Below are positions 1,074 to 30,389 of a DNA stretch of 64,000 bases, piece by piece. Source of the DNA: Thermoplasmata archaeon (GTDB lineage: Archaea > Thermoplasmatota > Thermoplasmata > Lutacidiplasmatales > UBA184); the NCBI GenBank assembly GCA_021817245.1, contig JAKAVQ010000006.1, forward strand, positions 1 to 64,000. Reading direction: 5' to 3'. The first letter of the stretch is position 1, and each line of letters begins with the position of its first letter. The notes under the pieces were generated by a model. It saw nothing but the letters and a program-made list of their open reading frames with translations, was not told the DNA's origin and ran no database searches. The translations under genes were made by a program, and so were the position numbers.

Positions 1074-1756
1074 GTTCGTGGAGCAGACGGGACGTCGAGA
1101 GCAACTTCGGAGTATCGGACGCGCACGGCTGGGTACGGTACGCGGCGACGAGAATGACGGAGTCACTGCCGAGAAGGGGCCGCGCGGTGGAAGAGCGTCC
1201 TCGGATACCCGTGACCAACGGATCCACGGAGTGGGTTTGGGGTAGGCCGGGAGGGATGTTCTGACGTGCCCCTCGAGCCGGACCGCGCCCTCGACACGTA
1301 CGCCGGCCCGCCCGGCGATCGTGCTGCCCCGCATCCATCCGGCCGCCTGCGGGAGCCGGAATTTCGGAGGGACGGCCAAGGCGCGCGAGGAGCAACGGCC
1401 ATGGGCGGCGCGCGAGCACGACCGCCAGCAGCGCGAGCGACGCGGCGTAGCGGGGAACACGGCGGGTCGCGAGTCGAAGGGCGCGCTCGTCGTGAACCGA
1501 TTCCCGCAACGCGACCGCGACTCGAGTCGGGTCCGTTCCGCTCGTCGACGGAGCGAGCGAGGAGGAAGGGCCCAAGACCGGTCGAAACGCTCCCTGACAT
1601 AATCAAGTGTCTTAACACTTCCAATCTTTAGGGCGGGTTCTGTCGATGGGCTTCGCTGCTCCGCTCGCGGGACCACCTCCGCCACGGTGCGGAGTCCCGT
1701 CCGGTCGGGGCGTCTTGACGGAAGGTTCTTGACTCGCGATCCCGAAGTCAGTCCCG
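1074..1756. other. Non-coding or degraded stretch between marR and the CBS-HPF gene
   Basis: I cannot support a gene in these roughly 680 bases. Several overlapping ORFs exist on both strands, but they are Arg/Pro/Ser-rich as expected of GC-rich shadow frames. One minus-strand frame has a short hydrophobic run (AASLALLAVVLARRPWPLLL) that could be a remnant of a membrane protein. An inverted repeat at 1605-1620 is listed separately. Confidence 0.4.
1605..1620. promoter_or_regulatory. Inverted repeat AAGTGT-CTTA-ACACTT
   Basis: Two perfect 6-bp arms are separated by 4 nt in an AT-rich patch. It contains the half site GTCTTA also present in the marR palindrome at 1062-1073. It could be a second site for the same regulator. 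No adjacent gene start is obvious, since the next gene begins 137 nt downstream. Confidence 0.35.
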
Positions 1757-2965
1757 ATGACCGCAGACATTCCGACCGCGGCCGACCTGATGCGACGTGC
1801 GCCGGTCACGATCGGCCAGGGCGCGTCGGTGCACGAAGCGCTCGCCGCGATGCGTCGCCGGGGGGTCCACGAGATCCCGGTGCTCGACGGACGAACGTAT
1901 CGCGGGATGGTCTCGCTGGACGATATCGCGCTCCGCACGAACCTCGCCCTCTCGACGAAGGTCGAGAATTTGCTCTCCTTGCCGCCGCGGCTCGCCCCGG
2001 AAGAGCCCTGGGGCGAGGTCGCCGCCCAGTTGCTCCGGTCCGGAGCTCGGGCGGCGCCCGTGATCGGGCCCTCCGAGCTGCTGCTCGGGCTCGTATCGCG
2101 GAGCGATGTACTGAGGGTGCTACCGTCGGTCGGCGCGCCGGCGGAACTCTATGCCGAGACGGTCATGGGCCCGATGTCGGAGTCGGTCGACGAGCGGAGC
2201 GGGATCGGAACGCTCATCGGGCTCGTCCGCAACGATCCCCCGATCGCAATCGTCGATCGTAGGGGACGACTCCAGGGTTCGGTCGGCATCGCGGATCTCT
2301 CGCGGGCCTTCTGGCGACCGAAGCGCGCCGGCCGAGGAGACCTTCCGAGGGAAGGCGCCGACCGCGGACAGGTGCTCGGGGTGGAGGCGCGGTCGATCAT
2401 GCGGACTCCCCCGGTCGCCGTGTCCCCCGAGACTTCGGTCCGCGCGGTGGTGGCCCGCATGCTGCGGGAGCGAGTATCGTCGGTCTTCGTCGTACGCGAC
2501 GACCGGCCGATCGGGGTGGTGACCCAGACCGACCTCCTTGCGCTCGCCGTGGGAGGGCATCCGACTCGGCGCCCGAGGGACCGTGTGCTCGTCCAGCTCC
2601 ACGGCTTCCCGCTCCGCGAGGACCCGGAGCTCGTCGCCGACGTCGACGCCGTCGTCGAGCGGGGCCTATCGAGGATCCGGCGACGGCTGCCGATCGCGCT
2701 CCTCGACCTCCACCTCGTGCCGCAGGGGATCCACCGCGCGGGCCATGTGACCGTCTCGGCGCGTCTGCACACTCCGCAGGCGATCCTGCACGCCGAACAG
2801 ACCTCTTGGGACGTCCGGAGCGGGGTCGCCGAGGTTTTGTCTCAGCTCGACCGCCAGGGCCGGGCGCTCGCCGAGCGCCGCCGTCGCTACGCCCGGATCC
2901 GGGTCGAGCGTCGGCACGCTCGGGAGACGGCGGTTCTTCCGTCCGAGCCGCTAGTGGCACCGTAG
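1757..2965 (+). CDS. Four-CBS-domain protein with C-terminal ribosome-hibernation (HPF/RaiA-like) domain
   Basis: A 402-residue protein. Four CBS repeats are visible at about residues 7-60, 62-125, 132-186 and 212-266, each with the hPVhD/hGhVTxxDhL pattern; the fourth is the clearest. Residues about 275-385 form a different domain, beginning VLVQLHGFPL and alternating beta strands with a long basic helix, which resembles the HPF/RaiA (sigma-54 modulation) fold that sits in the ribosomal decoding region. CBS pairs bind adenine nucleotides, so the fusion suggests a ribosome-silencing factor gated by energy charge. Archaeal CBS-linked hibernation factors are known in principle; the assignment here is by pattern only. 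Confidence 0.75.
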   Translation: MTADIPTAADLMRRAPVTIGQGASVHEALAAMRRRGVHEIPVLDGRTYRGMVSLDDIALRTNLALSTKVENLLSLPPRLAPEEPWGEVAAQLLRSGARAAPVIGPSELLLGLVSRSDVLRVLPSVGAPAELYAETVMGPMSESVDERSGIGTLIGLVRNDPPIAIVDRRGRLQGSVGIADLSRAFWRPKRAGRGDLPREGADRGQVLGVEARSIMRTPPVAVSPETSVRAVVARMLRERVSSVFVVRDDRPIGVVTQTDLLALAVGGHPTRRPRDRVLVQLHGFPLREDPELVADVDAVVERGLSRIRRRLPIALLDLHLVPQGIHRAGHVTVSARLHTPQAILHAEQTSWDVRSGVAEVLSQLDRQGRALAERRRRYARIRVERRHARETAVLPSEPLVAP

Positions 2966-2993: not shown

Positions 2994-3671
2994 CTACACG
3001 ATGCGGCGGGCCTGACGCGCGCTGTTCTCCGGCGCGAACTCGGGGTCCTCCGCGCGCCCGGCCGGATACGGAAATCGTCCCCGGGAGAGCACGTCGTCGC
3101 GAGTGACGATCCCGATCAGTCGGTCGTGATCGAGGACTGGGAGCCGGTTCACTCGGTAGCGCAGCAGCTGGCGCACCACGGTCTCGACCGTCGCGTCGGG
3201 CGGCACGGAGCGAACCCGGCGGGACATTACCCGCGAGACCGGCACGTCCCCGAGGATCTCGCGCAACTTCTTCATCGTGGCGTCGGGCCGACGTAGAAGG
3301 TACGCGAGCAGAAGCTCGAGGCTGCCGTCCGCGCCTTTCAGGCCCGCCCGCCGTGCGGCGGCGCGGCCGATGTCCCGCTCGCTCAACACCCCAACGACCC
3401 GGCCTCCCGCGTCGACCACCGGGAGGCCCGAGACATCCCTCACCCGCAGGATCTCGAGCGCGTCGAGGAGCGAGGCCCGCGAGGGGACGGTCGCCACCTG
3501 CGGGCTCATGACGTCCCGGGCGGTCGCGTTGTAGTAAAAGACCGGCCCCTCGAGCGCCCCCAGCGGAGCGAGCCGCGGACGGGGCTCGAAGCCCTTCGGG
3601 TTCCGGGGCCGAGACCGTGCGTGCGCGGTCCGTCGCACCGCGCGGATCGGGGTTGCGCCCACCATGGTCAT
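2994..3671 (-). CDS. Protein with a pair of CBS domains
   Basis: A 225-residue protein. After a basic, poorly conserved N-terminal stretch (about residues 1-45) come two CBS domains: residues about 50-105 (DVMSPQVATVPSRASLLDAL to GVLSERDIGRA) and about 140-205 (VMSRRVRSVPPDATVETV to GIVTRDDVLSRG). No catalytic domain is attached, so it is probably a nucleotide-sensing module acting on a partner. The gene converges on the CBS-HPF gene, ending 28 nt from it. A TATA-like GAATAT lies about 25 nt before the ATG, supporting this start and a leaderless mRNA. Confidence 0.8.
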   Translation of the reverse strand: MTMVGATPIRAVRRTAHARSRPRNPKGFEPRPRLAPLGALEGPVFYYNATARDVMSPQVATVPSRASLLDALEILRVRDVSGLPVVDAGGRVVGVLSERDIGRAAARRAGLKGADGSLELLLAYLLRRPDATMKKLREILGDVPVSRVMSRRVRSVPPDATVETVVRQLLRYRVNRLPVLDHDRLIGIVTRDDVLSRGRFPYPAGRAEDPEFAPENSARQARRIV

Positions 3672-10010: not shown

Positions 10011-10454
10011 CTAACCGAGCGGGGGGTGGCTCGACTGGTAGCCCGCGATCTCCCGGGAGAGGCGGTCAATGTACTGGCGGAACGTCGAGAGGACGTTCTT
10101 CGCGGTGATGATCCCGACCACCCGGTCGTCCGAGCGGACCACCATCCGCCGGATCCCGAGGTTCGCCATCGTCGCGACGACCTCATCCGTAGGGGTCTCG
10201 GGTCGGCAGGAGTGTACGACCTGGGAGGCCAGCGCCTTCAACCGGACCTCGGCAGGAGCGAGCCCTCGGGCGACGACCTTCTCGAGGAAGTCCCACTCGG
10301 TCACGATCCCGGCGACCGTGGCCGCAGGGCCCCGCGTGACCACCGCGTACCCGCGACGGTGATCGGCCATCGCCCGGGCGGCGGTCAGGCCGTCCGTCTC
10401 TTCGTCCATCGAGAGGAACGTCGTCTCCATGATGTCCTGCGCGACGAGGACCAT
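10011..10454 (-). CDS. CBS-pair protein
   Basis: Two CBS domains make up nearly the whole protein: about residues 7-60 (DIMETTFLSMDEETDGL to GIVTEWDFL) and 75-130 (QVVHSCRPETPTDEVV to GIITAKNVLSTF). I chose the ATG at 10454 (MVLVAQDIMETT, 147 residues) because a TATA-like TCTTATG lies about 25 nt before it. The ORF-track start at 10478 overlaps that box. Stand-alone CBS pairs usually sense adenine nucleotides or S-adenosyl compounds and regulate a partner. None is evident here. Confidence 0.8.
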   Translation of the reverse strand: MVLVAQDIMETTFLSMDEETDGLTAARAMADHRRGYAVVTRGPAATVAGIVTEWDFLEKVVARGLAPAEVRLKALASQVVHSCRPETPTDEVVATMANLGIRRMVVRSDDRVVGIITAKNVLSTFRQYIDRLSREIAGYQSSHPPLG

Positions 10455-10530
10455 GCGCTGAGCATCGACCCCCGGCATAAGAGGGTCTAGCGCGACCGCC
10501 CCGATCTCTTCCGGCCCTCACCGAAGGGCC

Positions 10531-29810: not shown

Positions 29811-30389
29811 CTAGCCTTCCGGCTTTCGGCGCAGTGAGGTACCCCGGAGCCCCCGGATCAGATCGGACTTGGTGACGATCCCGCGGATCTCGCCGCGATG
29901 GCTCACCAGCACGGCCGCGTACCGGCCCAGGAGCGGGGGAAGAAGCTCGGCGGGAAAGCCCTCCTCGACGACCGGGTACGCGGTCTCGAGCACGTCCCGG
30001 ACCCGGAGTCGATGGGCGTTCGCCTGGGCGAGCGCGCGAAGCAACGCCGACTCCGAGAGCGCCCCCACCACGCGACCCTCATCGATTACCGGCAGCTGCG
30101 AGAACGCACCGGACTCCATCCGCTGCGCGGCCGTGGAGAGCGATGCGGCAGATTCGACGGAGGTCAACGTTCGGTTCATCAGGTCCGCCACCGTGAGCTT
30201 CGGTGCGGTGAGCCCTTCCTTCGTCTCAAGATAGCTCAGGATCTGCTGGACCAGTTCGTAGGACGGGCGGATCTGTCCGCGCTCGATCCGCGACAGCGTA
30301 GCGTCGCTCCGATCCACCGCCCGAGCCAGCTCTCCGAGCGGGATCCCGAGCGCAGTACGGCGCCGACGGATCTCGCTCAGCGTGTCCAT
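29811..30389 (-). CDS. XRE-type HTH regulator with a CBS pair
   Basis: A 192-residue protein. Residues 5-55 form a Cro/XRE helix-turn-helix (LGIPLGELARAVDRSDATLSRIERGQIRPSYE). Two CBS domains follow at about 65-120 and 125-185 (DLMNRTLTSVESAASL, GALSESALLRALA, RVRDVLETAYPVVEEG, GIVTKSDLIRGLR). This HTH-CBS layout is common in archaea and suggests a DNA-binding regulator that responds to adenine nucleotides or another small ligand. A GAATTAACC box lies about 25 nt before the ATG. Confidence 0.88.
   Translation of the reverse strand: MDTLSEIRRRRTALGIPLGELARAVDRSDATLSRIERGQIRPSYELVQQILSYLETKEGLTAPKLTVADLMNRTLTSVESAASLSTAAQRMESGAFSQLPVIDEGRVVGALSESALLRALAQANAHRLRVRDVLETAYPVVEEGFPAELLPPLLGRYAAVLVSHRGEIRGIVTKSDLIRGLRGTSLRRKPEG

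Follow-up and report, generated by a model that had tools for sequence, protein, structure and literature searches.

The question raised by this locus is what a protein that joins several CBS domains to a domain resembling the hibernation factors HPF and RaiA does in a Thermoplasmata archaeon. The protein is encoded at positions 1757-2965 of the window, by which we mean the whole stretch of 64,000 nucleotides analysed here (contig JAKAVQ010000006.1, hereafter C6 of genome G000). The gene very probably encodes a ribosome hibernation factor of the HibA family, a diverged paralogue that is probably a second, differently regulated one. Since HibA was published in April 2026, the architecture combining CBS and HPF/RaiA domains was already described, and what is new here is of modest scope, namely a second, diverged HibA in one genome and a conserved gene row at the standard copy.

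HibA, detected in 47% of archaeal genomes, is built from four CBS domains, which span residues 1-269 in P. abyssi, followed by a C-terminal HPF/RaiA domain (PMC13324472). In P. abyssi and Thermococcus barophilus it plugs ribosomes, inhibits translation, an effect seen in vitro, and preserves 70S ribosomes; its deletion in T. barophilus leads to later regrowth and less 70S (PMC13324472). A HibA-related protein of Haloferax volcanii with tandem CBS domains and a hibernation domain, HVO_2384, was noted in 2025 and is known from its co-purification with the GNAT variant Pat2 Y154A (PMC12607858); we liken it to the window protein by its description, not by sequence.

The reading frame of the window gene is uninterrupted, starts with ATG and has a coding-type distribution of GC by codon position (0.78/0.51/0.85). 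The gene and its parts are as follows.

1757..2965, forward strand: HibA-type gene, diverged second copy of the genome, 402 amino acids.
1772..1936, forward strand: CBS1, about residues 6-60 (Pfam CBS, 45.4 bits; AlphaFold2 model).
1952..2122, forward strand: CBS2, about residues 66-122 (Pfam CBS, 25.6 bits; AlphaFold2 model).
2144..2314, forward strand: CBS3, degenerate, about residues 130-186 (AlphaFold2 secondary structure and alignment to P. abyssi HibA).
2315..2377, forward strand: long loop before CBS4, about residues 187-207 (alignment to 9sr9_H).
2378..2560, forward strand: CBS4, about residues 208-268 (Pfam CBS, 57 bits).
2585..2932, forward strand: HPF/RaiA-type domain, about residues 277-392 (sub-threshold Pfam S30AE, AlphaFold2 fold, Foldseek).

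The first-pass annotation of this DNA, made from the sequence alone, had counted four CBS domains, and the count holds. Pfam recognizes CBS in three significant stretches of the N-terminal part (E 3.6e-35) and misses CBS3, but the AlphaFold2 model, built on an alignment of 64 relatives (mean predicted local distance difference test score, pLDDT, 87.7), shows four CBS units, with the corresponding fold at CBS3, where the alignment agrees. The protein thus has the four tandem N-terminal CBS domains of HibA. Judged by the alignment, the loop at about residues 187-207, whose residues 193-202 have pLDDT below 50, is the positional counterpart of the peptidyl-transferase centre (PTC) loop of HibA (residues 190-207 of the latter; PMC13324472).

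The sequence of the C-terminal domain gives faint signals: Pfam Ribosomal_S30AE (PF02482) scores 18.3 bits on the whole protein and 21.3 bits (E 4.6e-4) on the C-terminal part alone, both below the curated cut-off of 23.7 bits, and NCBIfam yfiA gives a weak hit there (E 0.0018). In the AlphaFold2 model, a strand (278-283), a helix (290-308), three strands (315-322, 331-338 and 343-350) and a long helix (353-392) follow each other in the order of HPF/RaiA. As the fold search with the whole protein was dominated by CBS proteins, with 9sr9 absent from the matches listed, the domain was also folded and searched alone; its best 39 PDB matches in Foldseek, from E 4.1e-6, were all HPF, RaiA or protein Y. 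This confirms the earlier observation that the last 110 or so residues resemble HPF/RaiA, for which a fold prediction of residues 270-400 had been proposed as the check. The fold is shared with bacterial HPF, RaiA and YfiA (PF02482), which lack a CBS module. Where HibA has its two archaeal-specific insertions, the corresponding loops of the window protein, judged from its model, are short (residues 284-289 and 323-330).

The resemblance to HibA extends from end to end. Residues 19-385 of the window protein match P. abyssi HibA (UniProt Q9UYR4, PDB 9sr9_H) at E 2e-11 with low identity, the family profile matches it over positions 7-378 at E 7e-42, and the two proteins are collinear, with four tandem CBS domains, a long loop before CBS4 and a C-terminal HPF/RaiA domain in common. 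The family profile also finds a PDB entry described as a CBS domain-containing protein (9l96_a, 406 amino acids), which it matches over CBS1 and CBS2 and again over CBS4 and the HPF-type domain (E 3e-31). In fold searches the CBS module also resembles archaeal CBS proteins bound to ribosomes, such as 9znf and 9e6q: Dri of Pyrobaculum calidifontis (9e6q, 9e7f) and Methanosarcina SriA-SriD (9znf, 9zng, 9zni; chains of 270-339 amino acids), on which our literature search found no paper. Dri, however, combines two CBS modules and lacks an HPF/RaiA domain (PMC13324472), whereas the window protein has one four-CBS module and the HPF domain, and the fold of that domain rules out a Dri-type or standalone CBS protein. 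The HibA family thereby gains support by an independent route, because a reading of raw DNA found the CBS and HPF fusion and the fold comparison agreed.

Unlike P. abyssi HibA, the window protein is a diverged second copy alongside a canonical one. HibA matches occur in 101 of the 106 genomes of the order, nearly always in single copy, and in all 39 of its high-quality genomes (completeness of 90% or more, contamination of 5% or less). The genome studied here has two genes, the window copy and a canonical copy of 417 residues on contig C8 (L052:4752-6002), with 42% identity over the aligned part. Only one other genome of the order, G038, has one canonical copy and one window-type gene. The latter is 54% identical to the window copy, all other sequences being 23-43% identical to it, and is truncated by a contig end at residue 274, before the HPF domain. 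In the maximum-likelihood tree these two genes form a clade supported at 100/100, its stem 1.37 long, and the C8 copy falls with those of G043 and G042. The pairing rests on both the tree and pairwise identity; the exact attachment point of the clade is unsure, because the window sequence has a long end branch, as the tree builder warned. Other double matches in the order are fragments (G026, G004). In another genome of the same class, G347, there are two HibA matches, on contigs C22 and C125.

What might the CBS module sense? The first-pass annotation had suggested that the protein links energy charge to ribosome silencing, a coupling that stays hypothetical. The CBS module of P. abyssi HibA binds AMP, ADP and ATP (Kd of 12, 65 and 113 uM), one nucleotide per module, but AMP and ATP had no clear effect on the ribosome binding of that protein (PMC13324472). 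CBS1, CBS2 and CBS4 of the window copy carry the S/T-x-x-D motif, whereas in P. abyssi HibA, as read from a pairwise alignment, it lies in CBS3 and CBS4, and these motifs suggest that the nucleotide site may differ between the two. The D of the CBS1 motif is specific to the window copy (0 of the 62 other family rows checked), with E in the second copy of G038. A switch in which AMP would load HibA onto ribosomes and ATP would release it could draw on the affinities above and on the motifs kept in the window copy, including its particular CBS1. Yet the motif's S/T is absent from CBS3 in this lineage, with G in its place here and in nearly all relatives, and we consider such a switch unlikely.

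A different concern is whether the window copy still acts on ribosomes at all. It keeps 66 of the 82 strongly conserved positions of the CBS module and 20 of the 32 of the HPF domain, a level similar to that of more distant genera of the family, and its comparison with the second gene of G038 gives 0.41 nonsynonymous (dN) and 1.0 synonymous (dS) substitutions per site, the latter near saturation. Conserved positions and dN below dS fit a protein under constraint; for the HPF part, the second-copy lineage is represented by the window sequence alone. Several observations weigh against a working hibernation factor. Twelve of the 32 HPF-domain positions conserved in canonical copies are changed, so that ribosome binding may be altered or weakened; the C-terminal extension common in canonical copies is missing; and, since the G038 gene is cut before the HPF domain, only the window sequence shows how far that domain is conserved in the second-copy lineage. 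Together with the long stem branch and the presence of only two carriers among 106 genomes, the changed positions and the missing extension would suit a paralogue that is decaying or has been put to another use, one that has lost ribosome hibernation and kept just the fold, such as an adenylate-responsive regulator. We find this improbable: the frame is intact, dN is lower than dS, and basic residues have not been lost (16 K+R, compared with 12 in the canonical copy). Moreover, the general Pfam HPF model scores the HPF domain of the window copy (C6, 2642-2881) at 21.5 bits, whereas it finds nothing in this genome's canonical copy, even with E as high as 1.

That the second copy is an assembly artefact, with contig C6 or its first kilobases derived from another organism, is highly improbable, for although the gene is found less than 3 kb from the start of the contig and the estimated contamination of the assembly is 3.98%, the sole aIF5B of the genome sits on C6 (14188-15948 of the window), G042 and G043, to which this aIF5B is close, are also among the closest relatives of the C8 canonical HibA, the sole NAC gene is on C8, and G038 independently holds a canonical and a window-type gene. 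The identity of the C6 aIF5B is 82% to G042 and G064, and 81% to G043. With the only aIF5B on one contig and the only NAC on the other, C6 and C8 look like parts of one genome; these single-copy genes and the G038 pair led us to reject a mis-binned contig, and mis-binning is unlikely. Among control genomes, NAC was found in the four archaea only. Archaeal pointers in the genome also include aIF5B, a thermosome-like gene and Dph2, and the G+C content of the window is about 70%.

The surroundings of the window gene differ from those of the standard copy. The latter lies in a conserved row of PAC2, a GNAT acetyltransferase, HibA and aNAC, with Dph2 nearby (G000 C8, L052:2817-7322; also L053, L048, L063 and L030). 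Among HibA loci with enough flanking sequence, 50 of 54 have aNAC and 23 of 30 have Dph2 after HibA, and 53 of 65 have GNAT and 35 of 43 have PAC2 before it. These counts understate the canonical case, since the window copy, outgroup loci and fragments are among the loci counted. The row is tight in the genome studied here: PAC2 and GNAT overlap by 14 bases, HibA lies some 60 bases past GNAT, and aNAC starts 28 bases past the HibA coding sequence (stop codon not counted). The position of GNAT directly beside canonical HibA fits the independent Haloferax report on Pat2 (PMC12607858). The main text of the HibA paper, as distinct from its supplements, does not mention operon, neighborhood, acetyltransferase, diphthamide or copies (PMC13324472).

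None of this row is retained at the window locus: relatives of PAC2, GNAT, aNAC and Dph2 are absent from the whole window, which rules out a preserved canonical context. Upstream of the gene are a MarR-type regulator on the other strand and a major facilitator superfamily (MFS) fragment, and two further features flank it; the second copy of G038 adjoins an APS kinase.

1605..1620, no strand assigned: AT-rich perfect 6-4-6 inverted repeat AAGTGTcttaACACTT, located some 140 bases upstream of the HibA gene.
2994-3671, reverse strand: gene for a two-CBS protein of 225 amino acids, downstream of and convergent with the HibA gene, by architecture not of the HibA CBS module family.

The inverted repeat AAGTGTcttaACACTT occurs once in the window and once in the whole genome, and is possibly a regulator site. 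More CBS proteins are encoded in the window at 10011-10478 and 29811-30389, both on the reverse strand, the latter with a helix-turn-helix-like N-terminal stretch. A single scan of genome contigs gave only distant CBS matches.

By analogy with P. abyssi HibA, the four-CBS module of the window protein and the loop before CBS4 would sit in the 50S subunit, at tRNA and peptidyl-transferase sites that are vacant. Translation on the occupied ribosome would be blocked reversibly, and the ribosome protected until growth resumes, with an adenine nucleotide probably bound by the CBS module. The standard HibA of the lineage belongs to a translation-related gene row on another contig; the window copy would probably act as a second hibernation factor under different regulation. 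A division of tasks in some archaea of this lineage can be put forward tentatively, in which a housekeeping HibA would be expressed with the translation row (PAC2, GNAT and aNAC, with Dph2 nearby), and the diverged HibA would be controlled separately, have a changed 30S contact surface and changed nucleotide sites, and serve under a different stress. Provided that the second copy is functional, the two genes would offer a natural comparison for identifying the residues that tune ribosome binding and for asking whether the CBS nucleotide sites matter.
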